From Nitrospira sp. (GTDB taxonomy: Bacteria > Nitrospirota > Nitrospiria > Nitrospirales > Nitrospiraceae), in contig JAHBWT010000009.1 of NCBI GenBank assembly GCA_019636815.1, positions 1 to 64,000 of the forward strand: a DNA stretch of 64,000 nt, read 5' to 3'. This document shows, one piece after another, positions 742 through 25,866 of this stretch. Below the pieces are notes generated by a model. It had not been told where the DNA came from and did not search any database. It worked only from the letters and a program-made list of their open reading frames with translations. Made by a program: the position numbers and the translations under genes. Within the stretch, counting starts at the first letter, position 1; every line of letters starts with the position of its first letter.

Positions 742-1075
742 CAGGTGAATCCATTCCGATGCACCTGCATCGGTTCCCATTCAGCCGATTCGATACAATC
801 GGTCGAAGACGGCCAGGTCTGGCTCTGCGAGATCCTGCGAAACGGCATGATTCCCATGGTAGTTGTGCTGTTCAGCCGATCGAAGCGCGGCGCGCTGACG
901 ACAGCACAGGACTTGCTACGCCTATACAGCAAGTCTCAGGCCGGGACAGGCTGGGCAGTCCTACCCAGCAGCCCATTCCCTTGTGAAGCTCGGCCAGGAT
1001 CGGCGACTCCGGCGGTGATTCCGACCATCACCGCCGGGTATCGTCGTCCTCTCCGCTATTCCGGCGCGATCTGCT
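742..1075 (+). repeat. Structured intergenic repeat, copy 1 (full length)
   Basis: This is a roughly 330-base noncoding element with a second full-length copy at 25505-25866 and shorter copies near 4290, 5285 and 8580. It contains several possible hairpins. Examples are ATCGG/CCGAT near 774-792, CTTGCT/AGCAAG near 911-932, GCTGGG/CCCAGC near 949-968, and CGGCGGTGA/TCACCGCCG at 1010-1036. The loops differ between copies while most stems are kept. No protein-coding frame is shared between copies. It may be a non-autonomous mobile element or a structured RNA. Confidence 0.7.
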
Positions 1076-4198: not shown

Positions 4199-4289
4199 CG
4201 TGGCCCCGTTGAGGGATTTCCAACATGACGGGGGCGCCATCGTAGCACAACATGTCAAGCATGCTCCATCCGTGTTCGAATATTGAGGA

Positions 4290-4475
4290 GGCCGCATGAA
4301 TCGGATTGGATTCAGCTGAATCGGTTCCCATTCAGCCGATTCTATACAGTGGGTTAAGAGACAGTTACATCCAGCCCTACGAGTTCGCACGAAACAGCTG
4401 ATTTTCCACGGTGGTTGTGCCGCTCGGTGGATTCAAGCGCGGCGCATCGGCAATAGCACGAGAATTGCTATTTCT
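4290..4475 (+). repeat. Structured intergenic repeat, copy 2 (short)
   Basis: Its opening (gaatcggattgga...) matches the repeat near 25505. It includes the stem GCTGAAT/ATTCAGC, overlapping GAATCGG/CCGATTC, near 4314-4341. A weak TGCTA/TAGCA stem lies near 4466-4483. The distal half of the full element is absent. It occupies most of the 337-base gap between the TonB receptor start and the next gene; I see nothing else in that gap. Confidence 0.6.
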
Positions 4476-4535: not shown

Positions 4536-5147
4536 ATGAATACTATACAACGTATCTGGCCAGGTGCCGTCGTAGGCATCGTCCTCATTGGAGGCGGACT
4601 CTTGATGAGCTATGAGACCGAGGTCCCATCGGCGGGCCTGCAAGCAGCATTAGTACATCAACCTCCTGTGTTGAGCAGCAACCCGAGCCAAATCATAGCG
4701 GACATCGGGAGTGGGAGTGGTCAAGCAAGCAATTCCTCATCACAGGGAGACACCGACAATTCTTCTGCTTCGCGCTTTGTCGTCGCCTTCCCAGGCGCCG
4801 TGCTGGACAAACATACAGGGTTGGTTTGGGAAGAGACGCCCGATGCTACTCCCAGAACCTGGGCCGACGCGACCCGCTACTGCGTCACCAAGACGGTCGG
4901 CGGAACTATCGGCTGGCGGTTGCCTTCGGTGGCGGAGCTCAAGAGTCTACAAGATCTGTCGATGGCGCCGCCGTTTGTCCCGGCGAGTGTCTTTTCTGAT
5001 GTCGAGTCGACCAGCTATTGGTCTGCGGGGGCTCCTACTGGTGTGTCGTTCGTGCACTTGGTCGATGACCGCGTGAGCAGCGGCAATACGTCCCATACCT
5101 TTCCCGCCTGGTGCGTCCGTGGTGGCGTGAATACGGAGCAGTATTGA
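4536..5147 (+). CDS. DUF1566 (Lcl-type) exported protein
   Basis: This 203-residue protein has an N-terminal signal anchor (hydrophobic residues about 9-23) and a low-complexity Ser/Gly/Asn linker (about 60-80). It then has a DUF1566 domain: DKHTGLVWEE, TWADATRYC, GWRLPSVAELKSL, YWSAG and a final AWCVRGG. This domain is common in extracytoplasmic proteins of uncertain role and resembles parts of C-type-lectin-like folds. The start follows an AGGGGAGGGGAG purine tract. The gene stands alone; the flanking intergenic regions hold repeat copies. Confidence 0.8.
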   Translation: MNTIQRIWPGAVVGIVLIGGGLLMSYETEVPSAGLQAALVHQPPVLSSNPSQIIADIGSGSGQASNSSSQGDTDNSSASRFVVAFPGAVLDKHTGLVWEETPDATPRTWADATRYCVTKTVGGTIGWRLPSVAELKSLQDLSMAPPFVPASVFSDVESTSYWSAGAPTGVSFVHLVDDRVSSGNTSHTFPAWCVRGGVNTEQY

Positions 5148-5280
5148 GACGTCGATGACCATGAAATGATGCGGAAGAACAGTTCGATGACCAAAAGAAG
5201 GTGAACAACATTTGCTCTGTAGCTGTCCGGCGAAAGGGAAAACAAGTGTGTGTTGTGAATGGTTGAGAAGCTCGTGGCGC

Positions 5281-5332
5281 ACCGCGTGAATCGGATTGGA
5301 TTTTGTATCGGTTCGGATTCAGCCTAGCAAAG
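5281..5332 (+). repeat. Structured intergenic repeat, 5' fragment (copy 3)
   Basis: About 50 bases match the start of the repeat family (gtgaatcggattgga, then tgtatcgg and gattcag). The rest of the element is not recognisable before the end of the PIN toxin gene. The remaining bases between 5148 and 5370 show nothing else I can name. Confidence 0.5.
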
Positions 5333-8447: not shown

Positions 8448-8574
8448 AGTGGCCCCGTTGAGGGATTTCCAACATGACGGGGGCGCCATTCTAGCACAGC
8501 GTTAAACGGGCGCTCCATTTCGTAACTCTTATAATCATCCGACAAAAAGAAAATCCGGTGCGATAGTGAGGGAG

Positions 8575-8800
8575 CTTGTGCAGGTGTCGCCTGAATCAGA
8601 TTGCATTCATGCTGAATCCATTTTTATTCAGCTAAATAGATACAGTCGAACGAAGATGACCAAGTTTGATTACACGAGTTTATGCAAAACAGCGTTGATT
8701 ACTCATGCTAATTTGGCTTTTCAGTGGATTGATGCGTCTAATCGACGACAGCACAAGACTTGCTAATGCGGTACCGCAAATCCAAGGTCCAGCCGGTATT
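8575..8800 (+). repeat. Structured intergenic repeat, copy 4 (diverged)
   Basis: This is a more A+T-rich, diverged copy. It keeps the first stem (GCTGAAT, 8 bases, ATTCAGC, near 8611-8632), the aacagcgttgatta/tggattgatgcgtc middle, and the gacagcacaagacttgcta block near 8748-8766. It fills about half of the 480-base gap between the TonB receptor and the giant gene. The rest of that gap shows no gene that I can support. Confidence 0.55.
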
Positions 8801-8927
8801 CCGACAATGCGAGTCATAGATTCAGTATGTCGATTCGAGTAGGAGAAGACCTATCGGTACAGAATAGTCGTTGGTACCGGTGGCAGTTTATGAGCTTTAC
8901 CAGCCAAAGACTCCGTGGAGGCCTGCG

Positions 8928-11900
8928 ATGCGTGACACATTATTTTTTACCAAGCTGCGAGTATTGTTGTGCGGGTGGCGTTGGAAACGGCATCGGCAAA
9001 GCTCGTGGCTCAGGGCGCAGTTCCGACGCACCCGGCAACGGATGGGCCGCCTTTCCCCTCTCGCGCGCCCGTCATTTTCTCGACTGACTCAACACGTAGC
9101 GCATAACACACAGAACTTTCTCTTGGAGCCCCTTGAACCGCGGGTGCTGCTGGCCGCCGATCTGACGGGGCTGGTGGCATCGGCCACGCTGCCCGATCCC
9201 GCCGTGCCGCCCGCCACGGCCACGGCCGTCGTCCAGGTCCAGAACATCGGCGACCAGCGGGTGACACAATCCCAAGTCGGCGTCTACGCCTCGCTCGACA
9301 CCACCCTGGACAGTGCGGACATCCTGCTGGGGACCGCCAATACCGGCCAAGTCAACGCGGGCCAGTCCAAGAACGTCTCGGTCAAGCTGACCCTTCCAAA
9401 CACCCTCGATCCGGTCAGCTACCGGCTGCTTGCCAAAGTCGACAACGCCAATGCCATTGCTGAGAACAACGAGAGCAACAATGTCGCGGTCGGCGGCACT
9501 CTGAACGTGGCCTGGCAGTTCGGCGCGGTGCCGGGCCAGCCGGGGATCACGCCCCTGACTCTGACGGATGCGGATGGCACTAAGGTTACGTTTAATTTGG
9601 TCGGCCCGGGGATCGGCACGGTGATTCCCGACGGCAGCCAGTGGGATGTACGGGTAGCCGGCACGACGGCGGCCAGCATCCTCACCATTCAGACCACCGG
9701 GGGTGGCAACGGGCGGGTGACCCTCAACGATCTCACCGTGCTGGGGCCGCTGGGGATCCTGACGGCCACCACTACCCAGTTTACCGGCACACTCGCCATC
9801 AATGGCACCGCTCAGATTCTCTCCCTGGGCCCCGTGGATGGCGGGACCGTCGCGGTCGCCTCCGTGCAAACCTTCGAGGCCGCAGCCTTGACGAACGCGA
9901 CGGTCTTGATCGGGGCGACCTTAGGTGCGGACGGGCAGCTCGGCGGCACGGGGGCTGCGGCGGACACGTTCCAGGCCGGCGCCGTCAGCGTGCTCAAGAT
10001 CACGGGCCCGGTCACCAGCTCCAGCATTCGCGTGGGGGTAGATCCGGTGGACGGGATTTTCGGCAACGGCAACGATGGGCTCCTCGGGGGCGCCAGCAGT
10101 CGCATCAGTACTCTGACCATCGGGGGGGTGCTGAGCGCGGACAGCCGCATCATCGCGGGGGCGCTGCCGGCCACCGCCCTCATCAACGGCCAAATCGTGC
10201 GGAATCTGGCGAGCCTGCCGCAGTTCAGCACCGATGTCACGGCGCCGGTGCTCACGGCGGCGCTGGCCCACGACACGGGAGCCTCCGCCACGGACCAGCT
10301 CACCTCCAACCCCACGATCATCGGCATCCTCACGGACAACGGGACGCTGGCGAGCTTCACCGCTGGGTTTGGGGCGACCCCGACGTTCAATATTTTGCCG
10401 GATCGGCAGGCGAACGGCGCGTTCACCTTGACCCCGGCGCGGCTGGCGCAGATCCAGGACGCGCCCCTCACAGACGGCCCGCACACCCTCACGCTCCGGG
10501 CAACCGACGGGGTGGGCCACAGCACCCAGGTCACGGTGTCGTTCACGCTGGATACGAGTGTTGCTCCGCTCAGCTTGGACCTGCATCCAGGGTCCGATAC
10601 GGCGCCGGTGGGTGATCAGCAGACGACCCAGGAGCTGGTCACCTTGACCGGGCAGACGGAACCTCACGCGGGGCTTGAGTTGCTCGATGGGCTGTTGGAG
10701 CCGCTGGCCACTACGACGGCGGATGCGGCGGGCCTGTTCACCTTCCCCAATGTGGCGCTGGCGCTGGGGGCCAATACCGTCACGGCGCGGGCCACGGACC
10801 TCGCCGGCAACCAGCAATCGTTCAGCCGGACTATCACGCGAACGCCGATTCAAACCACCGTGCGATGGATCAATCCGAATGGCGGGGACTGGCATACAGT
10901 CTCCAACTGGAGCACAGGAGTGCTGCCGACTGCCGACCAGGATGTGATCATCGATATCGCCGTCACAAATCCCATCACACACACCGCAGGAACGACGCAG
11001 ATCAAGAGTCTGACCTCCACGCAACCTCTTGCGCTGGCTGGAGGCATAGTAAATATCAGTGGAGACTTCGAGTCGGGCAATCCTGTCTCGTTTACGGGAG
11101 GCTCGGTGAGCACTGCGGGTGATCAGATCTATAACGCGAATGTGGTGCTGGCGGCCAACACGACGCTCTCGGGTAACGACATCACCTTCAACGCCAACGT
11201 CAATGGGTCGCCCCACACCCTCACTTTGAACATGACCGGCGCGATCACCCAAATGGCTGGGTTCCTGACGGCAGAGACCCTCACGCTATCGGCGCAGACC
11301 GGGATCACTCTGACGAACATTGACGTGTCCAGTCTTGCCGCGATGAACGTGACCGGCGCGGTGGTAATCACGGAGGTGGACGGTCTGACCCTAAACGCGG
11401 TGAGCAATAGCAACGGCTCCATTACGATTGCGACGGCGGGGAGCCTCGTTCTTAACGGCAATGTGACCGCCGGCGTGAATACGATGACGCTGACATCGGG
11501 CGCGTCGATCTCTCAGTTAGCCGGCACACTCACAGCCGGGACGGCTTTCTTCACAGCGAAAGCAGGGATCAACCTGACGTCTGGCTCAATCGCGCATCTT
11601 GCAGCGACAAACAACACCTCGGGAAACATCTCGATTACCACGACAGGTCCCCTTAATGTGGACGTGGGCGGCGTACGAAACAACGCGACGACGGGTGATG
11701 TTTCATTGGCCACGAACGGCACGCTCACCCTGACAGGTGATGTGACCGTCCAGCCAGAGCGGACGATTTCACTCTCAGGCCGGACAATCGCTCAGACGGG
11801 GGGCGACCCGATCGCGGACACGCTGGTCCTCACGTCGGTAAATGGCGCGACTCTGACGAACCTCGTAGCCGAGAACCTGTCGGCAGTCAACACGGGATCG

Positions 11901-14900
11901 GGAGTCATCCTTGTATCGGTCATGGGTGATCTCACGATCATCGCCCCCGGCTTGGCGAACGCAGGGGGCAATCTCATGCTCACCGTCCCAGGCGATCTGA
12001 CGGTCAGGGCGAATGTCAGCGCGTCAGAGGCGGTCAGGCTGAATGTGACGGGTGACCTGATAAACGAAGAGACGCTGAGTCTAGGCATGAGCGGGCAAGC
12101 CATCGTTACAGGTGGGTTCACTAACTCCGTCACTGGGGTCGTGGACATGGATATTGGTGGGACCACTTTGTTCGGTCGTCTACTCATAGCCGGCCCGGCG
12201 TCTCTGGATGGGACGTTGGACGTTACGCTGGTCGACGGCTTCGTGCCGGCGCCGGGTGATCGCTTCCAGTTCATGACGTTCGGCTCGCGGACCGGGTCTT
12301 TCAGCACGACGAACCTGCCGGCGAATTTTGCGGTGGATCAGACTGATCCGACAGATTTGGAATTGGTGGTGGCGACACCGAACCAGGCGCCGGTGCTGGC
12401 GCCGATCGGCAACCAAACGATCGATGAAGGGCAGACGCTGACCTTCACGGCAACGGCCAGTGATGCCGACGAGGGACAGACGCTCACGTTCAGTCTCGAT
12501 CCTGGGTCAACCGGTCAGGTGCCGACAGGTGCCACGATCAATCCAACCACGGGTGTGTTCAGCTGGACTCCGACCGAAGCACAGGGGCCGGGCACCTATA
12601 CATTCGATGTGGTGGTGACAGATGGCGGGACGCCGGCATTGAGCGACAGCGAGACGATCACCGTAATGGTGAACCCCGGGGAAAGGGTAGTCAACGGGAC
12701 AGGAAACGATGACGTGCTCACGCTGAAGATGGTGAGCGGGGAGCTAAGCTACACGTTGAATGGCAACACGGTGGGGATCGCGGGGGCGACCTCGTTCCGG
12801 TTCAATGGCGGCGGCGGCAACGATATGATGACGGTCGATTACTCCGGTGGATTTTTCTCCATACCGGTGACGTTTGAAGGTGAAAGTCAGGCCACAGGCG
12901 GCGGGGATAAGCTCGTAGTGATGGATGGCACATTCACGGACGTGGAGCATACGTTCACAGGCAGTGGGGGCAACCTCCGGTATGACACAGCCGACGGAGG
13001 CGCGTCCGCTGACGCGAGCATCGTGTATACCGGGTTGGAGTCCGTGGACATAACGGGAAGCGCAATCGCCAGCCTTGTGTTCAACCTCCCCGGCACGATC
13101 GACCAAGCGATCCTGGAAGACGACAGTACTCCGAGCAATGGTATATCGCAGGTTCGCAGCCGAAACGGGGTCCCCACCTTCGATACGACGTCATTCTCGA
13201 ACCCGACTTCAAGTCTCACCGTGAACATGGGCGGCGACACTGGCACATTCACGGTTGCCTCGTTGCCTGACTTCACCAAGTCGCTCACGATCAACGGTCA
13301 AGCGGGCTCGGACAATGTAAACTTCACTGGTACGACGAGGTTCGATTCTCTGGCCGTCACCGCCGGAGGCTCGATCACGGATTCAGGGAGTGGCCTTTCC
13401 GTCGTAAGCAACGCGAGCTTCACCGGCTCTTCGATAACGCTCGACGGAGCCACCAATGATTTCAGCTTTCTCACTTTCAATTCTTCAGGAGGTGTGACCT
13501 TAGTTGATTCCAACAGCATTGCGCTAGGGGGCAGCAGCACTGCTGGTAGTCTTGTTGTCAAGGCGGGTACCACTCTCACGATGAACGGCACCATCGACAT
13601 TGCGGGCTTCGCCGACCTTGACGCTACTGATGGAAATCTCACTCTGAACGGCGACATGAGTGTCGCAGACAGCGCTGTTTTCGAGTCGGTCGCTGATATC
13701 GTTGTAAACGGCAATCTCAACGTTGCAGAAAATGCCGCTTTCTTCCCGGGAAGCGACGGAAGCGGATCACTCTTGGTCGGCCATACTTCCAGCAGCGTGG
13801 TGAACTTCGGCACGCTAACATTCGTCGCTCCTAACGAAGTGACTATCGTGGAGGACTCGGACACAGTGTTCACTGGGGAGAGCACGGCGAGCAGTCTTGT
13901 TCTCACATCAGCCGGTTCCATCACCGATGATGCTGACGCCGATATCCACGTCGTGAACAATGCGAGTCTTAGAGCGACCGGGGCGATCATGCTAGGGGAC
14001 CAGGTGGGCAACGTCATCAACTCCGGCACACTCACCTTCATCAGCACCGGTGGCGTCAATATCAGCGAGGACAGCAATAGTGAGTTCACGGGGAACAACC
14101 GCGCTGGAAACGACGTGAGCTTGGCCACCGTGGGCAGCCTGACGGTCAATGGCAGCGTGGATCCTGGCACGAGTTCGATGAGACTAACCGCGCCGGGCGG
14201 CGTGGTGTTGACGGCGAGTGCGGTCGTGAACATCGAGGTCGGTGGTACAGCTTCGAATGAGTTCACGGTCATCAGCATCCCCGGGTCGGTCACACTTGAC
14301 GGGACCCTGGACGTCGATCTGGTCAACGACTTCGTGCCGGCGCCGGGTGATCGCTTTCAATTCATGACGTTCGGCTCGCGGACCGGGTCTTTCAGCACGA
14401 CGAACCTGCCGGCGAATTTTGCGGTGGATCAGACTGATCCGACAGATTTGGAATTGGTGGTGGCGACACCGAACCAGGCGCCGGTGCTGGCGCCGATCGG
14501 CAACCAAACGATCGATGAAAACGATACCCTGACCTTTACGGCCTCTGCCACCGATGCGGATGTGCCAACTCAAGCGCTTACCTTCAGTCTCGTCAATGCG
14601 CCAAACGGCGCAGCGATTGATTCGGCAACTGGCGAGTTCACCTGGACGCCGACCGAAGCACAGGGGCCTGGCAGTTACACCTTCGATGTCGTGGTGATAG
14701 ACGATGGGACGCTAGCGATGAGCGATCGGGAGACGCTCACAATCACGGTTCACGAAGTGAATCAGGCGCCGGTGCTGGCGCCCATCGGCAACCAGAGCGT
14801 GCAGGAAGGGGAGACGCTCACCTTCCAAGCCACAGCGACGGACTCGGACTTCCCGGCAAACAGCCTTACCTTTAGCCTTGTCAATGCACCAAGCGGCGCA

Positions 14901-16040
14901 ACGATTGATCCGGCAACAGGAGTGTTCAGATGGACGCCGACGGCGGCACCGAACTCAATTAGCTTCACCGCATCGCCTGCCTTCGCGTCGCTCCGGATCA
15001 CGGAGACACAGCTGACGGTCGACCGGGCTGCGGACTTCGACGCGGCGGTCTCCGGAGCGGATGTCGTTTTTGCCACCCACAGTGGCGGCAACCTCGACGT
15101 CGTCCACATCGGTCTGTCCGGCATCGAGCTGCCGGTGACGATCGATCCGGCCGACCAGGATGCGCCCGACGTCGACGCCGGCCGGGTAGTCTGGGTCGAT
15201 CGGCGCTTCGGCAACCCCGACCTCTTCCTGCGTGACCTCGCCACCGGCGTCGAGACACCGCTCGTGCTCGATCGAGAGCCCGACCTCCAACCGGCGCTCT
15301 CCGGCGACAACCTGATCTTCATCGCCATGCACGAGGGCGTCGCCCATGTGGTCTGGCACCAACTCAGCACCGGCGTGGAGCAACCGCTCACCTTCGACTC
15401 CGACGCCGAGAGCGCCCCCTCGATCGACGGCGACCTCGTGGCGTGGCAGGTCGTGCGGGGCGACTCGGTCGACATCATGGCGGTCGAGCTCGGCGGCACG
15501 CCCTTCGTGGTCGCCGGCGCTCCGGAGCACGAGGTCTTGCCCTCGGTCTCCGCCGGCCGCATCGCCTACATCGCGAACGGCGACGTGTTCCTCTACGACC
15601 ACGCGAGCGGCGACACCGTGCAGGTGACCGCGGACGCCGCGGCGCAACAGCGCGTCGTGCTCGACGGCGACCACCTGTTCTGGAGCGACGACAGCTCGGG
15701 GAACGTCGACATCTACCTGCACCACCTCGGAACCGGCGACACCTATGCGCTCACGAGCGACCCGGCCGACCAGGTCCTCACCGACGCCGACGGCGGTCGT
15801 GTCGTTTATCACGACAATCGCTTTGGGGATCTCAATGTCTGGATGACTACATTTAGCATTACTCGCCAGAACGCATTCACTTTCGACCTAGTGGTAGCTG
15901 ATGACGGTAATCCGTCCTTGAGAGACAGTGAGTCAATCACAGTGATGGTGAATGAGGAAAATTCGTCTCCTCTCGCGGTCGATGATTCTTTCACGGTGCA
16001 GCAGAACTCGACGCTCATGTCAGGCACTGCAAATGGTTGA
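8928..16040 (+). CDS. Giant LEPR-xLL multidomain surface/secreted protein
   Basis: About 2370 residues, starting at the ATG at 8928, 6 bases after GTGGAGG; an ATG at 8871 lacks such a site. The very basic N-terminus is followed by the LEPR-xLL motif (LLEPLEPRVLLAADL, about residue 69), a presumed sorting signal of giant exported proteins. Next come a CARDB domain (about 81-197), bacterial Ig-like domains (about 430-645), long beta-solenoid stretches (about 645-1080 and 1250-1790), and He_PIG/cadherin-like repeats opening with NQAPVLAPIGNQ (about 1150, 1848 and 1944). A TolB-like beta-propeller (about 2008-2311) is embedded in the third of these and is visibly more G+C-rich. The frame stops in the middle of a following cadherin-like repeat; the missing end lies in another frame. 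Probable role: adhesin or matrix protein exported by the genes downstream. Confidence 0.85.
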   Translation: MRDTLFFTKLRVLLCGWRWKRHRQSSWLRAQFRRTRQRMGRLSPLARPSFSRLTQHVAHNTQNFLLEPLEPRVLLAADLTGLVASATLPDPAVPPATATAVVQVQNIGDQRVTQSQVGVYASLDTTLDSADILLGTANTGQVNAGQSKNVSVKLTLPNTLDPVSYRLLAKVDNANAIAENNESNNVAVGGTLNVAWQFGAVPGQPGITPLTLTDADGTKVTFNLVGPGIGTVIPDGSQWDVRVAGTTAASILTIQTTGGGNGRVTLNDLTVLGPLGILTATTTQFTGTLAINGTAQILSLGPVDGGTVAVASVQTFEAAALTNATVLIGATLGADGQLGGTGAAADTFQAGAVSVLKITGPVTSSSIRVGVDPVDGIFGNGNDGLLGGASSRISTLTIGGVLSADSRIIAGALPATALINGQIVRNLASLPQFSTDVTAPVLTAALAHDTGASATDQLTSNPTIIGILTDNGTLASFTAGFGATPTFNILPDRQANGAFTLTPARLAQIQDAPLTDGPHTLTLRATDGVGHSTQVTVSFTLDTSVAPLSLDLHPGSDTAPVGDQQTTQELVTLTGQTEPHAGLELLDGLLEPLATTTADAAGLFTFPNVALALGANTVTARATDLAGNQQSFSRTITRTPIQTTVRWINPNGGDWHTVSNWSTGVLPTADQDVIIDIAVTNPITHTAGTTQIKSLTSTQPLALAGGIVNISGDFESGNPVSFTGGSVSTAGDQIYNANVVLAANTTLSGNDITFNANVNGSPHTLTLNMTGAITQMAGFLTAETLTLSAQTGITLTNIDVSSLAAMNVTGAVVITEVDGLTLNAVSNSNGSITIATAGSLVLNGNVTAGVNTMTLTSGASISQLAGTLTAGTAFFTAKAGINLTSGSIAHLAATNNTSGNISITTTGPLNVDVGGVRNNATTGDVSLATNGTLTLTGDVTVQPERTISLSGRTIAQTGGDPIADTLVLTSVNGATLTNLVAENLSAVNTGSGVILVSVMGDLTIIAPGLANAGGNLMLTVPGDLTVRANVSASEAVRLNVTGDLINEETLSLGMSGQAIVTGGFTNSVTGVVDMDIGGTTLFGRLLIAGPASLDGTLDVTLVDGFVPAPGDRFQFMTFGSRTGSFSTTNLPANFAVDQTDPTDLELVVATPNQAPVLAPIGNQTIDEGQTLTFTATASDADEGQTLTFSLDPGSTGQVPTGATINPTTGVFSWTPTEAQGPGTYTFDVVVTDGGTPALSDSETITVMVNPGERVVNGTGNDDVLTLKMVSGELSYTLNGNTVGIAGATSFRFNGGGGNDMMTVDYSGGFFSIPVTFEGESQATGGGDKLVVMDGTFTDVEHTFTGSGGNLRYDTADGGASADASIVYTGLESVDITGSAIASLVFNLPGTIDQAILEDDSTPSNGISQVRSRNGVPTFDTTSFSNPTSSLTVNMGGDTGTFTVASLPDFTKSLTINGQAGSDNVNFTGTTRFDSLAVTAGGSITDSGSGLSVVSNASFTGSSITLDGATNDFSFLTFNSSGGVTLVDSNSIALGGSSTAGSLVVKAGTTLTMNGTIDIAGFADLDATDGNLTLNGDMSVADSAVFESVADIVVNGNLNVAENAAFFPGSDGSGSLLVGHTSSSVVNFGTLTFVAPNEVTIVEDSDTVFTGESTASSLVLTSAGSITDDADADIHVVNNASLRATGAIMLGDQVGNVINSGTLTFISTGGVNISEDSNSEFTGNNRAGNDVSLATVGSLTVNGSVDPGTSSMRLTAPGGVVLTASAVVNIEVGGTASNEFTVISIPGSVTLDGTLDVDLVNDFVPAPGDRFQFMTFGSRTGSFSTTNLPANFAVDQTDPTDLELVVATPNQAPVLAPIGNQTIDENDTLTFTASATDADVPTQALTFSLVNAPNGAAIDSATGEFTWTPTEAQGPGSYTFDVVVIDDGTLAMSDRETLTITVHEVNQAPVLAPIGNQSVQEGETLTFQATATDSDFPANSLTFSLVNAPSGATIDPATGVFRWTPTAAPNSISFTASPAFASLRITETQLTVDRAADFDAAVSGADVVFATHSGGNLDVVHIGLSGIELPVTIDPADQDAPDVDAGRVVWVDRRFGNPDLFLRDLATGVETPLVLDREPDLQPALSGDNLIFIAMHEGVAHVVWHQLSTGVEQPLTFDSDAESAPSIDGDLVAWQVVRGDSVDIMAVELGGTPFVVAGAPEHEVLPSVSAGRIAYIANGDVFLYDHASGDTVQVTADAAAQQRVVLDGDHLFWSDDSSGNVDIYLHHLGTGDTYALTSDPADQVLTDADGGRVVYHDNRFGDLNVWMTTFSITRQNAFTFDLVVADDGNPSLRDSESITVMVNEENSSPLAVDDSFTVQQNSTLMSGTANG
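12229..12428 (+). repeat. Internal 200-bp direct repeat, first copy
   Basis: This stretch recurs at 14320-14519 with about four mismatches, at a constant offset of 2091 bases. It encodes the end of a solenoid segment (PAPGDRFQFMTFGSRTGSF) and the start of an Ig-like repeat (NQAPVLAPIGNQTIDE). The near-identity points to a recent duplication or conversion within the gene. Confidence 0.85.
14320..14519 (+). repeat. Internal 200-bp direct repeat, second copy
   Basis: This is the partner of 12229-12428. Downstream of it the two Ig-like repeats diverge quickly, so the homogenised tract ends sharply at 14519. Confidence 0.85.
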
Positions 16041-16380
16041 AGACATCCTGGCTGGCGTCGTTGGCTCAGGTCCTGCGGAACTGACGAACATGAACGGCAC
16101 GCTGTTCTTTACGGCACTTGATGAAGTCACCGGTAACGAACTCTGGGCGAGCGGGTTGGCGGCCAATCTGTTAGCTAATGACACTGATCCCGATAGCTCG
16201 ACACGGATCGTCACCTTAGGCACAGAACCCGCTAACGGGACGTTGGTGCTGAATACTGATGGGACCTTTACCTACCGACCGAACACCGGATTTACTGGCA
16301 TCGACAGCTTCACCTACACAGCCTCCAACGACGACAACCAAATGTCAAACGTGGCCACGGTGATGATCACAGTCACCTAG
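16033..16380 (+). pseudogene. Frame-shifted 3' end of the giant gene
   Basis: In the frame +1 relative to the giant gene, this segment reads an ELWxxDGT-type fragment (LTNMNGTLFFTAL, then GNELWASG). It continues with NLLANDTDPDSS, GTLVLNTDGTFTYRP, GFTGIDSFTYTAS and VATVMITVT before TAG at 16378-16380. The second part is the natural continuation of the cadherin/VCBS-like repeat that breaks off at DDSFTVQQNSTL in the giant frame. An insertion of about 145 bases, whose length is not a multiple of three, appears to have disrupted the repeat and produced the early stop at 16038-16040. Confidence 0.65.
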
Positions 16381-16406
16381 AACCGGGAGACAAGGAGGGA
16401 GACGAC

Positions 16407-16772
16407 ATGGAAAGACAACCAGCAAATGCCACGCAGCAGAATCCGGCTTCTACCGACAAGCGCCGCATTCGTTTCGACGGCACCGGCGTGAAAAACTCCT
16501 ACGCCAACACATGCCATGTCGCCAGCACGAAAGAAGAAATCATCCTCAACTTCGGGTTGAATCAATCCTGGGATCAGGGACAGCAGGATATTCAAGTCCA
16601 ACTCACCAATCGCATCATCTTGAGTCCGTTCGCGGCCAAGCGTCTGGCGATGCTGTTGCGCGGGGTCATGCACCAGTATGAAGCGCGATTCGGGAAGCTG
16701 GATGTGGGCCCGCAGTCCGAGCCGGCGCCCAAGGCGGATGCGGCCGACGAGAAGCCGCAGGTCGTCAACTAG
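16407..16772 (+). CDS. DUF3467 protein of the secretion locus
   Basis: This small 121-residue protein has a DUF3467 core: SYANTCHVASTKEEIILNFGLNQSW, VQLTNRIILSPFAAKRLAMLL and an alanine/proline-rich tail. In DUF3467 proteins the domain is small, beta-rich and soluble; its function is not established. The gene lies 26 bases after the 3' end of the giant-gene remnant and 58 bases before the GAF-HlyD gene, on the same strand, so it is probably in the operon. An upstream GGGAGACAAGGAGGGAGACGAC tract supports the start. It could be a chaperone or targeting factor for the cargo; this is inference. Confidence 0.8.
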   Translation: MERQPANATQQNPASTDKRRIRFDGTGVKNSYANTCHVASTKEEIILNFGLNQSWDQGQQDIQVQLTNRIILSPFAAKRLAMLLRGVMHQYEARFGKLDVGPQSEPAPKADAADEKPQVVN

Positions 16773-16830
16773 GAGTCACATACAGAGGTTTGTCTGTGGA
16801 GCCCTTCGGTCCGCTCAGGACGAACGGGTT

Positions 16831-18327
16831 ATGAACGACATTTTTATGAGCGAACAACGGGGTCCGCAAACGATCGTGCCACCTGAATCGAGCATTCTGC
16901 CGAGGCCGGTCACTCTTTCCCCTGACCTTGCCGAGTTGATCAAAAAAGCGGCCACGGCGGAGCAGCTCAAGATCGTGTTGGAGCTAGTTTCCGCCGCGGT
17001 GGCTTCCGGCCGGTTCGCCGAGGCCGCGCGAGCCTTTGTGACCGAGTTGGCAACCCGCTTGGCCTGTGACAGGGTGAGTTTCGGTGCCGTGACGGATGGA
17101 CGAATCGAGGTGAAGGCTCTTTCTCACAGCGCCACGTTCAGCGCGAAGACCAATCTGATTCGTGCCGGTGCCTCTGCCATGGAAGAATCACTGGATCAAC
17201 GACAGACGATCGTCGTGCCTCCATTGCCGACCAGTCCGACCCAGGTTATCCGTGCGCACGAGGAATTGGCCCGACAGTTTGGGGCATTCACCTTGTGCTC
17301 CGTGCCGCTCGTGGAACAGGGAAGGGTCATCGGAGTCTTGACCCTCGAACGAGGAACCGAGCAGCCGTTCGATCGGCGGGAACTCGATCTGCTTGAAGCG
17401 GTCGGCGCGGTCGTTGGACCGATTCTCGAAGTGAAGCGGCGCGATGATCGCTGGTTGACGAGAAAAGCCTGGGAATCCTTCCGCGCTCAGATCTCTAAAC
17501 TTGTCGGCCCCCGGCATGTCGGCTTCAAGCTGGCCGCGCTGACCCTCACAGCACTGACAGTCTTCGTTCTGTTTGTCAAAGGCGACTATCGCGTGACGGC
17601 GAAGACGGTGCTGGAAGGGTCGGTCCAGCGGGCGGCAGTGGCGCCGTTTCAAGGCTATCTCGAAACAGCGCCGGTCAGAGCTGGCGACGTGGTGCAGGCC
17701 GGACAGGTATTGGCTACGCTGCAAGATCACGATCTGAGGCTCGAACGTCTGCGATGGATCAGTCAACGCGATCAGTTGGCAAAGGAACATCGTCAAGTCA
17801 TGGCTGATCGTGACGCCGCCAAGGTGGAGATCAAGGCCGCGGAGTTGGCCCAAGCCGAAGCGCAACTGGCGCTGGCGACGGACAAATTGGCGCGCGCGCA
17901 GATTATCGCGCCGTTTGCGGGCATCGTCGTAACAGGTGATTGGAGCCAGCAGCTCGGCTCTCCGGTGGACGAAGGAAGGGTGTTGTTTGAGCTGGCGCCG
18001 TTGGATGAGTATCGGATCATTCTGCAAGTCGATGAGCGGGATATCGCACCAATTCGCACCACGCAGGCCGGAACGTTGCTTCTCTCCGCACTACCCTACG
18101 AATCAATGCCGTTCAAAGTGACGAAAATCACGCCGGTATCCACCGCTAAGGAGGGACGCAACTTTTTTCGTGTCGAAGCGGCATTTGCGGAACGGCCATC
18201 CGAGCGTCTTCGACCTGCGATGGAAGGCATTGCCAAAATTGAAGTCGATCGGCGGTTGCTCGTCTGGATTTGGACTCATGAAGCGGTTGATTGGGCAAGG
18301 CTGAAGTTGTGGTCATGGTTGCCTTAA
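16831..18327 (+). CDS. GAF-HlyD fusion inner-membrane adaptor
   Basis: This 498-residue protein has a cytoplasmic GAF domain (about residues 45-200; LATRLACDRVSFG, VPLVEQGRVIGVLTLE) and one transmembrane helix (about 230-250). A periplasmic HlyD-type part follows: lipoyl-like half motifs (APFQGYLETAPVRAGDVVQAGQVLATL), a short coiled-coil hairpin (about 300-350) and a beta-barrel (about 370-450). It resembles type I secretion adaptors with a sensor added on the inside. The start at 16831 gives the best domain boundary; the frame is open further upstream through the DUF3467 gene. It is a component of the proposed export machine. Confidence 0.85.
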   Translation: MNDIFMSEQRGPQTIVPPESSILPRPVTLSPDLAELIKKAATAEQLKIVLELVSAAVASGRFAEAARAFVTELATRLACDRVSFGAVTDGRIEVKALSHSATFSAKTNLIRAGASAMEESLDQRQTIVVPPLPTSPTQVIRAHEELARQFGAFTLCSVPLVEQGRVIGVLTLERGTEQPFDRRELDLLEAVGAVVGPILEVKRRDDRWLTRKAWESFRAQISKLVGPRHVGFKLAALTLTALTVFVLFVKGDYRVTAKTVLEGSVQRAAVAPFQGYLETAPVRAGDVVQAGQVLATLQDHDLRLERLRWISQRDQLAKEHRQVMADRDAAKVEIKAAELAQAEAQLALATDKLARAQIIAPFAGIVVTGDWSQQLGSPVDEGRVLFELAPLDEYRIILQVDERDIAPIRTTQAGTLLLSALPYESMPFKVTKITPVSTAKEGRNFFRVEAAFAERPSERLRPAMEGIAKIEVDRRLLVWIWTHEAVDWARLKLWSWLP

Positions 18328-18378
18328 TTCGCTGGGATCTCTGAATGCGCTCAGATTGCGGGCACTTCCTGAGGCCAC

Positions 18379-20526
18379 ATGGCCGGTGATTTCTTCAGCG
18401 CGTCCTGGTATCGCGTCGAGCGGCTGAAGCCGCGAATGCGGAACCATGTGCATCTCCAGCGACATCAATACCGTGGACAGATCTGGTATGTCCTTCAGGA
18501 TAGAGCCGCCGACCGGTTTCATCGCTTCTCGCCGGCCGCCTACCACGTGATCGGATTGATGGACGGCCGCCGCACCGTGCGGGACATTTGGGATTCGGCG
18601 ACGGCGGCGCTGGGTGACGAGGCGCCGAGTCAAGATGAGGTGATTCGTCTCCTTGGTCAACTCCATGCCTCGGACTTGATGGTCTGCGACGTGCCTCCGG
18701 ACACGCGCGAATTATCGGATCGGGCTGATCAAATCGTGCGTCGTCACTGGAAGTCCCGCCTGTCCAATATCTTTGCCTGGCGGTTTCCTCTCTGCGATCC
18801 GGATCGATTTCTCACACGGTTTCTGCCTCTCGTGCGCCCATTCGTCGGCTGGACCGGTATACTGCTCTGGTCGCTGCTGGTCGGGCTTGGCGTTGTTCTG
18901 GGGATAATGCACTGGAGCGATCTTACACAGAATATCCTGGATCAGCTTGCGACGCCATGGACATTGATCGCCCTTTGGCTGCTCTTCCCGGTCATCAAGC
19001 TCTTGCATGAGCTTGGACACGGGTTTCTGACGAAAGCCTTCGGCGGCGAAGTCCATGAACTGGGAGTGATGTTGCTGGTATTTACCCCGGTGCCGTATGT
19101 CGAAGCTTCGGCCGCATGGGCTTTCCGCAGTAAATGGCAACGAATCTTGGTGGGCGCCGGCGGGATGATGGTGGAACTGGCGCTGGCGGCGATGGCTCTC
19201 GTGGTGTGGATCAATGCCGAGCCGGGAGTCGTCCGTCTGCTGGCCTACAATACTATTTTCATTGCGAGCGTCAGTACGGTGATTTTCAACGCCAACCCTT
19301 TGCTGCGTTTCGACGGCTATTACATGCTGATGGATTGGCTGGAGATTCCCAATCTGCGATCTAGAGCCACTGCCTATGCCAGATATCTGTGCGAACGGTA
19401 TCTGCTCGGACAGCGCGAGGCAGAATTGCCTCTCGCCACATCTGGCGAACGGGCATGGTTCCTCGGCTATGGGATGACTTCATCGATCTACCGCGTGCTG
19501 GTCGTCGTGGCTATTCTCATCTTTCTTGGCGAGCAGTGGCCTTTACTTGGTCTTTTGTTCGCGGCGTTGACGGCGGTGACCATGCTCGGCATTCCAATGG
19601 TCCGAACGCTCTCATATCTCATCTCACATCCATCACTGCGACAGATACGTGGACGAGCGATTGTCACTTCGACCGTTCTCGTCGCCGCCGTCATCGCACT
19701 CTTGTGCGGAGTGCCGGTTCCATTTCATACGATGGCCGAGGGCGTGGTCTGGCTGCCCGACGAAGCGGTCGTTCGCGCCGGCACAGACGGCTTCATCCAA
19801 CACATAGTAGCCGCCCCGGATAGTCTGGTTCATGCCGGAGATGTGCTTGTTGTCAGCAAACATCCACGACTCGAGGCGGAACTTCGCGTACTCAAGTCGC
19901 GCGTGAAGGAACTGGAAGCCCGTCATGCGGAGCAGCGCCCGGTCGATCTGGTGAAAGCGGCCATCGTTCAAGAAGAGCTGGCCTATGCGCGGGATCAGCT
20001 TGCGAGGGTGCGGCACCGGGCGGACGAGTTGGTGATTCGAAGCCGTGCGAGCGGAAAGTTTGTCATGCCCGCCCCTCAAGACCTGCCTGGACGGTTCATC
20101 ACGCAGGGAGAGACCATCGCGCATGTTGTCGACATACAATCGTTGATCGTACGAGCGGTGGTGCAACAATCGGATATCGATCTGATCCGCAACCGACATG
20201 AACCGGCATCCGCGCGTCTCGCCGAGCGGTTGGCTGAATCATTACCCGCGTACATTTCGCGACTGACACCGGCGGCGATCAATGAATTGCCCAGCACGGC
20301 GCTGGGAACAGAGGGAGGTGGCATGGTGCCGGTCGATCCTATGGACCCCAAAGGCATAACATCCATGTACAACCTATTCCATGTTGATCTGTCCGTTCCA
20401 ACAGCCTCAGAGGTGGTACGTACCGGTGGCCGTGTCTACATCCGGTTCAGTCATGAATGGGCGCCTCTGACGGTGCAATGGTATCGGCAGGTGCGACAAC
20501 TGTTTCTCACTCGATTCAATGTTTAG
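18379..20526 (+). CDS. PqqD-like/M50 metalloprotease/HlyD fusion membrane protein
   Basis: This 715-residue protein starts with a PqqD-like winged region (about 20-105; HRFSPAAYHVIGLMDG, TVRDIW) that in related systems recognises peptides. An M50 site-2-protease-type membrane core follows, with about seven helices. It has the zinc motif HELGH (210-214) and the NPLLRFDG motif (306-313), so it is potentially active. After the last transmembrane segment (about 385-405) comes a periplasmic HlyD-like arm with a coiled coil (about 440-510) and barrel. Related proteins are annotated as putative peptide zinc metalloproteases linked to export. It overlaps the next gene by 8 bases. In this locus it may act as the inner-membrane channel or cargo processor. 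Confidence 0.85.
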   Translation: MAGDFFSASWYRVERLKPRMRNHVHLQRHQYRGQIWYVLQDRAADRFHRFSPAAYHVIGLMDGRRTVRDIWDSATAALGDEAPSQDEVIRLLGQLHASDLMVCDVPPDTRELSDRADQIVRRHWKSRLSNIFAWRFPLCDPDRFLTRFLPLVRPFVGWTGILLWSLLVGLGVVLGIMHWSDLTQNILDQLATPWTLIALWLLFPVIKLLHELGHGFLTKAFGGEVHELGVMLLVFTPVPYVEASAAWAFRSKWQRILVGAGGMMVELALAAMALVVWINAEPGVVRLLAYNTIFIASVSTVIFNANPLLRFDGYYMLMDWLEIPNLRSRATAYARYLCERYLLGQREAELPLATSGERAWFLGYGMTSSIYRVLVVVAILIFLGEQWPLLGLLFAALTAVTMLGIPMVRTLSYLISHPSLRQIRGRAIVTSTVLVAAVIALLCGVPVPFHTMAEGVVWLPDEAVVRAGTDGFIQHIVAAPDSLVHAGDVLVVSKHPRLEAELRVLKSRVKELEARHAEQRPVDLVKAAIVQEELAYARDQLARVRHRADELVIRSRASGKFVMPAPQDLPGRFITQGETIAHVVDIQSLIVRAVVQQSDIDLIRNRHEPASARLAERLAESLPAYISRLTPAAINELPSTALGTEGGGMVPVDPMDPKGITSMYNLFHVDLSVPTASEVVRTGGRVYIRFSHEWAPLTVQWYRQVRQLFLTRFNV

Positions 20527-22501
20527 CACTATCCATCCTGCTCAGATCCATGGAGTCGCTTATCCTGAGCGAGCCGCTCCCTCGTTAAATGCCATCGATA
20601 AATTTGCCGAACGAATGGCCGGACCGATTCTGCGCCGAGTGCAAAATCGACTTCACCAAGACAGGACATGGCCTGCGAGGGTCTCGATGTCGGCCTCGCA
20701 GTACGCCACGATGCCGGACACCGCGATTTCTTCTCGGGTACAAACCCTTCGCGAGGCGTTCGTGCGACAAGGGTTCAGTGATCCACTCGTCGCAGAATCA
20801 TTTGCGCTCGTGAGGGAAGTAGCGGGGCTGACGGTAGGGATGCGGCATTTCGACGTGCAACTGCTCGGCGGTTACGCGCTGTTGCGGGGCCACGTGGCCG
20901 AGATGCAAACGGGTGAAGGCAAGACGTTGACATCCACGCTTCCGGCCTGCACGGCGGCTTTCGCCGGGATTCCCGTCCATATCGTCACCGTGAACGACTA
21001 TCTGGCTAGACGAGATGCGGAGACCATGGGGCCGGTATTCGGCGCGCTCGGGCTTTCTGTCGGCGTGATCGTTCACGGTCTTACCCTTGAAGAGCGGCGC
21101 GCCGCCTATGCCTGCGACGTGACTTATTGCACGAACAAGGAGCTGGTCTTCGACTACCTCAAAGATCGGTTGACCTTGGGACGTATGCCTAATTCACTGT
21201 ATGTGCAACTTGAGCGACTCTCCGGCGAATCGTCTCGTCCACATCAGCTTCTGTTGCGCGGATTGCATTATGCCATTGTGGACGAGGCGGACAGCGTGCT
21301 CGTGGACGAAGCCCGCACGCCGCTCGTCATCGCCGGTCGCGGAAATACCGATTATGAACGGCATGTGTATGAGCAGGCGTTGAGCGTGGCGCGCCGATTG
21401 AAGCAAGGAAGCGACTTTCGACTGCACGTGCGCGAGCGGCATATCCGATTGACGGAAGAGGGGTTGGCGCGCGTGTCGGAGTTGACGCGTTCGCTCGACG
21501 GAGTGTGGCAAGGACGGGGGCGCCGTGAGGATCTCGTTCGACACGCCTTGACCGCACTTCATCTATTTATTCGAGACAAGCACTACGTGGTGCAGGATGC
21601 GAAAGTGCAGATCGTTGACGAGTATACAGGGCGGTTGATGCCGGACCGTTCTTGGGAACGGGGACTGCATCAAATGATAGACGCCAAAGAAGAGTGCCCG
21701 CTCAGCGATCGCCAGGAAACGCTGGCACGTATCAGTTATCAGCGGTTCTTTCGACGATATTTGCGCTTGGCCGGCATGACCGGAACTGCGCGTGAGATTG
21801 CCGGTGAGCTCTGGTCGGTCTACCGGCTCAGTGTCGTGTCCATCCCCACAAACCGGCCGCTCCGCCGGCGTAGACGACCCCTTAGGCTGCACCGTACATC
21901 CACAGATCGATGGAACGATCTGGTTCGTTCGGTACAGGTGCTGCATCAGGAAGGAAGACCCGTGCTGATTGGAACACGATCGGTGGCCGCGTCTGAACAC
22001 TGTAGTCGTCTTTTGTCCGAGGCCGGACTGCCTCATCGCGTGCTGAACGCACGACAAGATAAGGAAGAAGCGGACATCATCGCTCGTGCCGGAGAAAACG
22101 GGCAAATCACCGTCGCGACGAATATGGCGGGGCGGGGAACCGATATTCATCTCGACCCGACAGTGGCCGCACGTGGAGGCTTGCACGTCATCGCAACGGA
22201 ACGTCACGATGCAGGACGTATCGATCGTCAGCTTTTCGGTCGTTGCGGCCGACAAGGCGACCCGGGCTCGTATCAAGCGCTCCTGTCGTTGGAAGATGAA
22301 TTGGTGACGGCGCACGTGAGCCGCCTCTGGTGGTTGCTTGCGAGTGTTGCGCTCAGCTTGGGCATGCGATGGCCCGCATTGATTATGTTTTGGTGGGCTC
22401 AACGGTCGGCTGAACGTATTCATACCCGCATGAGAACAGCGGTCATGCGGATCGACGATCAGCTCGATTCCACCCTAGCCTTTGCAGGTCGTTTGGAATA
22501 G
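20519..22501 (+). CDS. Short SecA-like ATPase of the secretion locus
   Basis: This 660-residue SecA homolog is shorter than housekeeping SecA (about 850-900). It has Walker A (MQTGEGKT, 129-136), a preprotein cross-linking region, Walker B (VDEADSVLVDEARTP, 254-268) and the second motor half with NMAGRGTDI (535-543) and RCGRQGD (575-581). After SLEDEL (590-595) the usual helical-scaffold, wing and zinc-binding tail are missing. A hydrophobic stretch (602-627) that could insert in the membrane and a basic tail are found there instead. The start codon overlaps the preceding stop (translational coupling). It is probably the motor that drives export of the giant protein; it is too truncated to replace normal SecA. 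Confidence 0.9.
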   Translation: MFSTIHPAQIHGVAYPERAAPSLNAIDKFAERMAGPILRRVQNRLHQDRTWPARVSMSASQYATMPDTAISSRVQTLREAFVRQGFSDPLVAESFALVREVAGLTVGMRHFDVQLLGGYALLRGHVAEMQTGEGKTLTSTLPACTAAFAGIPVHIVTVNDYLARRDAETMGPVFGALGLSVGVIVHGLTLEERRAAYACDVTYCTNKELVFDYLKDRLTLGRMPNSLYVQLERLSGESSRPHQLLLRGLHYAIVDEADSVLVDEARTPLVIAGRGNTDYERHVYEQALSVARRLKQGSDFRLHVRERHIRLTEEGLARVSELTRSLDGVWQGRGRREDLVRHALTALHLFIRDKHYVVQDAKVQIVDEYTGRLMPDRSWERGLHQMIDAKEECPLSDRQETLARISYQRFFRRYLRLAGMTGTAREIAGELWSVYRLSVVSIPTNRPLRRRRRPLRLHRTSTDRWNDLVRSVQVLHQEGRPVLIGTRSVAASEHCSRLLSEAGLPHRVLNARQDKEEADIIARAGENGQITVATNMAGRGTDIHLDPTVAARGGLHVIATERHDAGRIDRQLFGRCGRQGDPGSYQALLSLEDELVTAHVSRLWWLLASVALSLGMRWPALIMFWWAQRSAERIHTRMRTAVMRIDDQLDSTLAFAGRLE

Positions 22502-22503
22502 CG

Positions 22504-23163
22504 ATGACGGCACACCGTACACATCGTATCGTTGGATCGCTATGGGCCGTCCTTTTGGTCTGTTTTCCATCTCATTTGACGGCAGAAGATCTGACCTGCC
22601 TCATACATCCCTATGTAACCATCACGATTGTGTCGCCGGTTGCGGGCGTTCTTGAAACAGTTACGGTTGACCGTGGCGATTTGGTCAAAGAGGGACAGAT
22701 CCTGGCGACGCTCGATACGAGCGTGGAGCGGGCGACCGGGGCCGTGGCGCATGCGCAAGCCGAACTGACTAACCGCCGGCTGGCCGATTTGGAACTGAAT
22801 CGGACGAGTGCCGAAGTCGCTCTGCGCACGATTAAGAGTCCGATCAACGGAGTGGTGGTTGAGCGCTACATGCATCCCGGCGAATTCCCCAAGCAGGAGC
22901 GCATTTTGAAACTGGCACAGATCGATCCGTTGCGGTTGGAGACGTACGTGCCGGTTTCGATGTTCGGCAAGATCGCCGTCGGGATGTCAGCCATGGTTAA
23001 ACCGGAAAAACCAATCAAAGGTGAGTTCTCTGCCAAGGTGACCGTGGTCGACAAAGTTGTGGATGCCGCCAGCGGAACGGTCGGTGTCCGGTTGGAATTG
23101 CCAAATCCCCATAACAAGCTTCCCGCGGGATTGAAGTGTACACTCAAGTTTTCCCACCGGTAA
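22504..23163 (+). CDS. Periplasmic adaptor, HlyD/RND type (small)
   Basis: This 219-residue protein has a cleavable signal peptide (hydrophobic about 12-22, cut near LTAED) and lipoyl half-motifs (SPVAGVLETVTVDRGDLVKEGQILATLD; TIKSPINGVVVERYMHPGEF). The hairpin between them is very short, and a barrel domain follows (VSMFGKIAVGM, LPAGLKCTLKF). Membrane-fusion proteins of this type bridge inner-membrane pumps and TolC. It starts 2 bases after the SecA-like stop and ends overlapping the next adaptor, so it is clearly co-transcribed. Confidence 0.85.
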   Translation: MTAHRTHRIVGSLWAVLLVCFPSHLTAEDLTCLIHPYVTITIVSPVAGVLETVTVDRGDLVKEGQILATLDTSVERATGAVAHAQAELTNRRLADLELNRTSAEVALRTIKSPINGVVVERYMHPGEFPKQERILKLAQIDPLRLETYVPVSMFGKIAVGMSAMVKPEKPIKGEFSAKVTVVDKVVDAASGTVGVRLELPNPHNKLPAGLKCTLKFSHR

Positions 23164-24032
23164 TGCGAGACCTGGGCTGTCGTCCAAACTGTACCATCTC
23201 TCGCGTCGTTTGGCGCATGAGCTTTGCCGTATTACTTCTCTGGAGTGCAGAGCCAATCTCGATCAAAGCCGCTTCTGTAGCAAGCCACGCGGATCGCCAT
23301 GCCCGCTGTCTGACGAAACCCTCGGGGGAAGTTCTCATCAGTGCTCCAGTAGACGGCGTTATTGAGTCGATGCGTGTGAACCTCGGTGACATTGTGAAAC
23401 AAGGAGATGTCGTGGCCACTCTGGAGGCGACTCGGGAAACCGCGACCGTAGTCTATGCACGGACGAAGGCCGAGATGGTGGCTGCCATACAGGCCGCGCA
23501 ATTTCGGACAGAATTCACGAAACGAAAGGTTGCGCGCGCCAAGGATCTCGCGAAGATGTCCGCTATCGGGCAGCACGAACTGGATGAAGCCGAAACCGAA
23601 CATCGCCTGGCTGAGGCTGCGGTAGCGGAAGCGATGGAGAACCAGCAGCTCGCTCGTGAAGAATTGCGCCGAGCCGAGGCGGAGTTGGCGCTCAGAACGA
23701 TTCATAGCCCCCTCTCTGGGCTGATCGTCGAGCGATTTCTGTCCCCTGGCGAGATGGTTCGGCAGGGACCTCTCCTGAAGGCCGTGCAGCTTCATCCGCT
23801 CCAAGTGGATGCGTTGGTGCCGTTGTCATGGGTCGGGAAGCTCTTTCCCGGCATGGCTGCCGAGGTGAGGCTTGATATGGGAGTATCCCATTCGTATACC
23901 GCACGGATCGATTTGGTCGGAACCCTCGCGGACGGAGCGACCAATACCTTTGCCGTTCGACTGACGGTTCCCAACTCCGAGTATCGAATTCCCGCCGGGC
24001 TGCCTTGTACGGTTCGATTCTCAACGCCGTAA
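23163..24032 (+). CDS. Periplasmic adaptor, HlyD/RND type (larger)
   Basis: This second adaptor has about 289 residues and is a paralog of the one before it. It has a signal sequence (FAVLLLWSAEPISIKAAS), lipoyl motif SAPVDGVIESMRVNLGDIVKQGDVVATLE, and a coiled-coil hairpin of about 90 residues (about 95-180) longer than in its neighbour. The second lipoyl half is TIHSPLSGLIVERFLSPGEM, followed by a barrel. I place the start at the ATG of the TAATG junction (23163); the frame is open to 23136. Two adaptors of different hairpin length in one operon suggest a hetero-oligomeric periplasmic tunnel. Confidence 0.85.
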   Translation: MRDLGCRPNCTISRVVWRMSFAVLLLWSAEPISIKAASVASHADRHARCLTKPSGEVLISAPVDGVIESMRVNLGDIVKQGDVVATLEATRETATVVYARTKAEMVAAIQAAQFRTEFTKRKVARAKDLAKMSAIGQHELDEAETEHRLAEAAVAEAMENQQLAREELRRAEAELALRTIHSPLSGLIVERFLSPGEMVRQGPLLKAVQLHPLQVDALVPLSWVGKLFPGMAAEVRLDMGVSHSYTARIDLVGTLADGATNTFAVRLTVPNSEYRIPAGLPCTVRFSTP

Positions 24033-24158
24033 GCCGCAAACCTGGACAGTATTTTCATAGGACACCGCCCTTCACCGAAAGAGGCCATTCTGCGTGAGCG
24101 GAGAAGCTGCATCGACGGAGTCGAGTCAAAAACCTGAATGAGAAGAGGAGGTGCGCCG

Positions 24159-25504: not shown

Positions 25505-25866
25505 TGCGGGTGAATCGGATTAGATTCTGTATCGGCTCCGATTCAGTGGATACTATGCGGTCGGTCGAGAGCAATGAACCCGACGTTGCAAACTCGTGCG
25601 AAACAACATGATTTCTACGGTGGTTGAGCTGTTCCGTGGGTTAGAGCCCGGTGTGTCGATGACAGCACAGGATTTGCTATGCCTATACAGCAAGTCCCAG
25701 GTCGGGAGAGGCTGGGCAGGCCCACCCAGCACCCTACCCTTTGTGAGGCCCGACCGGGAGCGGCGAGTCCGGCGGTGAAATTGACCCCATCACCGCCGGG
25801 TTTCGTTGTCAAACATTCTTCTCCACTCCACTATTCCGGTCCTATCGAGATGCCGGTGCGATCTGG
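25505..25866 (+). repeat. Structured intergenic repeat, copy 5 (full length)
   Basis: This full-length element matches 742-1075 along its whole length. It retains GAATCGG/CCGATTC near 25512-25544, TTGCT/AGCAA near 25675-25693, GCTGGG/CCCAGC near 25711-25730 and CGGCGGTGA/TCACCGCCG at 25770-25798. The loops of the last two hairpins differ in sequence, and in one case length, from copy 1. It fills most of the gap after the TolC gene. I see no terminator with a T-run. Confidence 0.7.

Follow-up and report, generated by a model that had tools for sequence, protein, structure and literature searches.

The window, by which we mean the whole stretch of 64,000 nucleotides analysed here, comes from a draft Nitrospira genome of 4.0 Mb, on a contig that begins at the window's first base. 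The best protein relative of the window was also from Nitrospira. Five related copies of a repeat, every one on the + strand, were found at 742, 4290, 5281, 8575 and 25505. With positions 701-1120 as the reference, blastn within the window matched 25527-25810 (75%, E = 1.9e-47), 4309-4470 (73%, E = 3e-19) and 8626-8765 (70%, E = 2e-9), and a profile search of the window added 5270-5326 (E = 1e-7). The copies at 742 and 25505 are full length (~330 bp, extents 742-1049 and 25505-25811), those at 4290 and 8575 are short and comprise the 5' ~200 bp only, and the copy at 5281 retains just the first ~50 bp with the first palindromes. These searches bore out an initial annotation of the DNA, which had counted at least five copies, two of them full, and they extended it by a sixth copy on another contig of the same genome (C105:76-385). 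The same annotation had seen no shared reading frame, in agreement with indels among the copies that are not multiples of three. The features are as follows.

746..783, + strand: copy A (full), tandem activator palindromes TGAATCCATTCCGATGCA (746-763) and TGCATCGGTTCCCATTCA (766-783), predicted
902..917, + strand: copy A, sigma-54-like -24/-12 element CAGCACAGGACTTGCT
~928, + strand: copy A, predicted transcription start, placed by the established distance from -12 to +1
928..1049, + strand: copy A, structured RNA, ~120 nt
939-945/989-995, + strand: copy A, RNA helix P1
950-955/964-969, + strand: copy A, RNA helix P2
974-988, + strand: copy A, conserved CU-rich segment of the RNA
1001-1006+1009-1019/1027-1037+1041-1046, + strand: copy A, RNA helix P3
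4297..4334, + strand: copy B (short), tandem palindromes (4297-4314, 4317-4334)
4454..4469, + strand: copy B, sigma-54-like element TAGCACGAGAATTGCT, 5' of the Lcl_C-domain gene
4536..5147, + strand: Lcl_C-domain protein gene, predicted to be driven by copy B
5287..5321, + strand: copy C, palindrome pair alone (5287-5304, 5304-5321)
8592..8630, + strand: copy D (short), tandem palindromes (8592-8609, 8613-8630)
8749..8764, + strand: copy D, sigma-54-like element CAGCACAAGACTTGCT, 5' of the giant adhesin gene
8871..25496, + strand: giant Ig-repeat adhesin gene with co-directional export genes, a putative operon that copy D is predicted to drive
25511..25545, + strand: copy E (full), tandem palindromes (25511-25528, 25528-25545)
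25663..25678, + strand: copy E, sigma-54-like element CAGCACAGGATTTGCT
25689..25811, + strand: copy E, structured RNA with the same three helices as copy A

A TonB-dependent receptor gene is present three times in the region (1-740, 2150-4390 and 6408-8489; 98% and 82-89% identical), and just past the 5' end of each lies a promoter-family copy that reads in the opposite direction. Three toxin-antitoxin-like pairs lie near promoter copies (1315-1985, 5371-6032 and 26373-27235), the types being TumE, PIN with a weak MazE-like partner, and TacA with GNAT. The earlier statement that all copies flank receptor, toxin-antitoxin or secretion genes holds as geography. For 4290 and 8575, however, the predicted reason for adjoining such genes is that both copies are promoters of the genes that follow them. 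Because the family contains two kinds of inverted repeat, its interpretation divides into a 5' DNA module and a 3' RNA module.

The repeat opens with two palindromes of the form TGaATC-N6-GATtCA, whose centres are 17-21 bp apart, and a -24/-12 sigma-54 motif, RGCAC-N5-TTGCT, is found ~100-160 bp downstream of the tandem palindromes. At the -24 element the window copies read AGCAC instead of GGCAC, so that one G of the usual pair is an A; the canonical sequence, TGGCATTGCAGTTGCT, is seen in divergent copies. Alignment of copies from ~20 species located the end of the short copies right after this conserved motif. For the genome-wide searches, reversed patterns and fetched loci served as nulls. 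Allowing at most one mismatch, the palindrome was found at 36 sites in the own genome, as opposed to 1 for the reversed control, and 54 of the 77 Nitrospira genomes had the exact palindrome, with as many as 16 hits in one genome, while the reversed control gave 0 in all 77. The palindrome recurs genome-wide and genus-wide without the remainder of the repeat. Tandem pairs outside the repeat family were detected in the own genome on C61 (two), C4, C64 and C3, and each is flanked on one side by a -24/-12 motif, for example TGGCACACCGCTTGCT. Isolated palindrome sites mostly have none, and no convincing sigma-54 promoter was found at the 5287-5321 pair or at two tandem pairs on C68. Copy C may accordingly be a degenerate remnant or an orphan enhancer.

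The spacing was confirmed in a held-out test on 40 previously unused sites from other genomes, 33 of them tandem, with a sigma-54 score cut-off of at least 9 out of 11. A motif at the expected distance was present for 29 of the 33 tandem sites; the mirror control gave 3 of 33 and random positions 4.5% (binomial p ~3e-35, a value to be read with the reservation that some genomes are close relatives and the sites not fully independent). The initial annotation took these first inverted repeats for hairpins. From their sequence context they are instead predicted to be DNA activator sites of a sigma-54 promoter, which that annotation missed.

Two further dyads were noted in the 5' part. One group of copies, among them copy A (909-934) and other full copies, has an inverted repeat, GACTTGCT...AGCAAGTC, that overlaps both the -12 box and the predicted start; divergent copies lack it. 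At 840-900 and in the short copies, a AACAGCATGATTTCCACGGTGGTTGTGCTGTT-type stretch between palindromes and promoter is conserved and has its own dyad, possibly the site of a second regulator or of a bending protein.

Copy B precedes the Lcl_C gene (4536), a homologue of which, at L063, is preceded by the same short promoter, and copy D precedes the giant adhesin and export genes (8871-25496). Elsewhere, genes linked to the palindromes and promoter encode ABC_sub_bind proteins, an ABC_sub_bind-kinase-response regulator set, the activators (EBPs) themselves, a Tll0287-like protein, RTX proteins, TonB receptors, a metalloprotease, a beta-propeller protein and several predicted lipoproteins, suggesting that the promoter family is mostly an envelope regulon. 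We also note that the co-directional set at 8871-25496 is unusual in composition, with a 2389-aa Ig/cadherin-repeat adhesin, a GAF-HlyD fusion, an M50-peptidase-HlyD fusion, a SecA-like ATPase (660 aa), two HlyD proteins and a TolC-like protein. The 16678 gene has relatives in, among others, Myxococcota, Granulosicoccaceae and Planctomycetota. Part of the adhesin gene seems to have an upstream duplicate, since 6232-6356 is 81% identical to 9414-9538.

The 3' module is confined to full copies and extends ~120 nt beyond the predicted start. It comprises the three helices P1, P2 and P3 and a conserved CU-rich segment. Two stems already listed in the initial annotation were recovered here, GCTGGG/CCCAGC as P2 and CGGCGGTGA/TCACCGCCG inside 1009-1037. 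Single RNA sequences fold at z scores of -3.3 to -5.0. Among 25 aligned RNAs, 93.2% of the cells were paired, compared with 30-49% when partners were slid. Double changes were seen at 10 pairs, and the covariation score of the 25 sequences exceeded that of all 500 shuffles. Examples are column 8/68 of P1 (UA to CG and the reverse), column 24/35 of P2 (AU, GU and GC) and column 89/112 of P3 (CG to UA and the reverse). Much of the covariation is one-sided or involves G-U pairs, and the upper part of P3 is nearly invariant. P3 is a long, GC-rich hairpin without a T-run, and no canonical intrinsic terminator was scored.

A covariance-model search of the genome and its relatives, the check proposed with the initial annotation, matched the RNA in 22 of 175 family genomes and, among 169 genera sampled across the phylum, in Nitrospira alone. 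In the majority of the genus genomes searched, no RNA copy was detected. The model was built without upstream sequence; tandem palindromes nevertheless preceded 24 of the 25 RNA copies and a sigma-54-like element all 25 (score at least 8 of 11). Exact palindromes were also commoner in RNA-positive genomes (19 of 20 versus 35 of 57, Fisher p = 0.003), a difference that shared ancestry may inflate. No Rfam family reached its gathering score in the window, and nothing relevant appeared at E<=1. An exact 18-mer from the P3 region turned up in nine viral contigs, but these matches are not the RNA. As judged from these comparisons, the 3' RNA is a new conserved family that matches no known RNA family. 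The suggestion of a structured RNA with a regulatory role is supported for the 3' half by covariation, fold energy and the covariance-model matches in 22 genomes, and appears very improbable for the 5' palindromes.

The RNA was found in genomes with and without amoA, and a link with comammox was dropped for this reason. In four amoA-positive genomes (G118, G053, G088 and G056), the gene of a hydroxylamine-oxidoreductase-type multihaem cytochrome follows an RNA copy at a distance of 0.2-1.1 kb (L074, L158, L159 and L167).

The own genome encodes one RpoN and has 29 EBP-domain matches. Three palindrome sites are located beside EBP genes (C61, C4 and C68). The HTH sequence NQTKAA..L.LQRTYLT, with an LQRTY recognition helix, is present at only 4 of the 29 EBP loci, and all three palindrome-adjacent EBPs are among these four, an association with a chance of ~0.001 (~1 in 900, 4 of 3654 triples). 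At two LQRTY EBP loci, a histidine kinase and an ABC_sub_bind protein are encoded as well. The candidate activators match NtrC, AtoC and PrsR models, all below the cut-offs of those models. An assignment to the PrsR/PEP-CTERM box was rejected, as the candidates scored 402-409 bits versus a PrsR (TIGR02915) cut-off of 502.6.

Taken together, it is quite probable that the repeat family represents enhancer-dependent sigma-54 promoters of one NtrC-type Nitrospira regulon, the short copies driving surface-protein genes and the full copies a regulatory RNA of ~120 nt. A response-regulator EBP with the LQRTY helix would bind the tandem TGaATC-N6-GATtCA palindromes ~100-200 bp upstream and open the sigma-54 polymerase at the -24/-12 element. 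Short copies would then transcribe the Lcl_C protein gene and the adhesin and export operon, and full copies a free-standing RNA folded into a long closing stem P1, the P2 hairpin, a CU-rich segment complementary to ribosome sites and the long, GC-rich terminal hairpin P3, at which transcription would end. The RNA would act in trans, perhaps by pairing with the ribosome-binding sites of envelope genes.

The main competitor concerns the 3' module alone, which could be a cis element, that is a leader, attenuator or transcription-stop structure of neighbouring genes, rather than a trans-acting sRNA. The cytochrome gene downstream of the modules at L074, L158, L159 and L167 is co-directional with them, as expected for a leader, and in L068, L070 and L072 the module follows a Tll0287-like gene in the manner of a 3' UTR. 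However, the next sizeable downstream gene is convergent at the window copy at 742 and at L064, L065, L067, L068 and L082, which leaves nothing to lead and favours a free-standing RNA, and a promoter of its own accompanies the module in almost every copy. We therefore regard a cis role as unlikely, albeit as the one alternative of some weight.

Much less probable is that the palindromes are RNA hairpins and the whole ~330 nt one structured transcript. The palindromes are indeed conserved with changes on both arms, but they occur genus-wide without the 3' module and at a characteristic distance from sigma-54 motifs, and the start predicted from the -12 box falls 3' of them.

Spread within the genome as a small non-autonomous mobile element of the MITE/REPIN type, as proposed initially, would account for several diverged copies in one region, subterminal palindromes and truncated copies. 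The repeat was found by blastn in 19 of 175 family genomes, all of a single genus, with 1-5 detected copies per genome, and searches of plasmid and phage collections gave no match. In ~9 species the same aminotransferase/amidohydrolase gene pair adjoins the repeat, indicating synteny. Short copies share no ends beyond the limits of the promoter, palindromes recur without the rest of the element, inspection of the flanks revealed neither shared terminal repeats nor target-site duplications, and no transposase link was found among the neighbours examined. Mobility is thus very improbable, and the same evidence speaks against a recombination site, another initial proposal, for which no support was found. 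Integron attC, retron, group II intron and IS200/IS605 MITE were dropped since no associated gene was present among the neighbours examined and also because sigma-54 enhancers explain the palindromes.

Least credible is a mere local duplication of promoter regions with TonB receptor genes and a functionless 3' module, to which the initial annotation would have reduced the family if covariation and further copies were lacking: the TonB gene beside three copies is itself duplicated, but copies 5281 and 25505 do not adjoin it, and the 3' module is kept with covariation across 22 species.

The free-standing RNA of the preferred reading would most likely act as a regulatory small RNA. One of its conserved segments, CCYUUGUGARG, is complementary to ribosome-binding sites, and may perhaps pair with those of envelope genes. 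Complementarity to targets was near chance level, with 3 matches to the CU-rich segment in the own genome versus 2 in the control. A genus-wide target search returned a recurrent porin-like leader, CTCACAAGGGAGGGCATCAGTATG, also in genomes where the RNA was not detected, and it was therefore not counted as evidence for a target. The leader, which belongs to a porin-like gene, is conserved throughout the genus (L221 position 2397, many genomes), and the L066 RNA (GCCCTCCCTTGTGAG) is complementary to all of its first 15 bases. Hfq (PF17209) had no match in the own genome (G000, 95% complete), which makes an Hfq-type sRNA mechanism unlikely. As a tentative and rather speculative extension, the RNA could be a genus-specific, sigma-54-controlled sRNA family in a bacterium with no detectable Hfq, sharing its dedicated multi-paralogue two-component activators with adhesin and receptor genes, pairing through CCYUUGUGAG with ribosome-binding sites of envelope genes (e.g. 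CTCACAAGGGAGGGCATCAGTATG) and, in some ammonia-oxidising species, placed before the hydroxylamine-oxidoreductase-type locus.

Nitrospira oxidise nitrite and ammonia and are important worldwide, and little of their regulation is on record. A literature search for small RNAs of the genus turned up none, and in a transcriptome study of N. moscoviensis small RNAs were removed before sequencing (PMC6606698). The RNA family and the predicted regulon are new here; the underlying principle is not. Besides the RNA family, the analysis provides a binding site that can be tested, a family of candidate activators and, throughout the genus, dozens of predicted target promoters. The predicted link of sigma-54 to adhesion and receptor genes agrees with the proposed sigma-54 control of the bacterial exterior (PMC3162934).

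Known systems offer close parallels, and the control of GlmY small RNA by sigma-54 in enterobacteria is one of them (PMC3162934). CrcZ/CrcY of Pseudomonas are another, described with their CbrB sub-sites (PMC6296734). As is predicted for the full Nitrospira copies, GlmY/GlmZ, CrcZ/CrcY and Qrr are sRNA genes with a sigma-54 promoter, upstream sites for an NtrC-type activator and several paralogous copies. The Qrr genes of Vibrio have LuxO as the activator of their sigma-54 promoters. The Nitrospira RNA differs in having no covariance-model match to any Rfam family, in belonging to a different phylum and to a host genome without a detectable Hfq gene, and in a promoter family that is predicted to drive adhesin and other surface-protein genes as well. 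Within Nitrospira, sigma-54 regulators beside nxr operons were already suspected of a regulatory role, and the available parts of those papers describe neither a binding site nor a regulon or small RNA (PMC6606698, PMC7522533). The PEP-CTERM box with PrsK-PrsR likewise combines an intergenic activator motif and a -24/-12 motif before surface-protein genes with a cognate NtrC-type regulator and kinase (PMC1569441). In contrast to that system, the Nitrospira activators score under the PrsR cut-off, the palindrome is TGAATC-N6-GATTCA, and an RNA gene is included.
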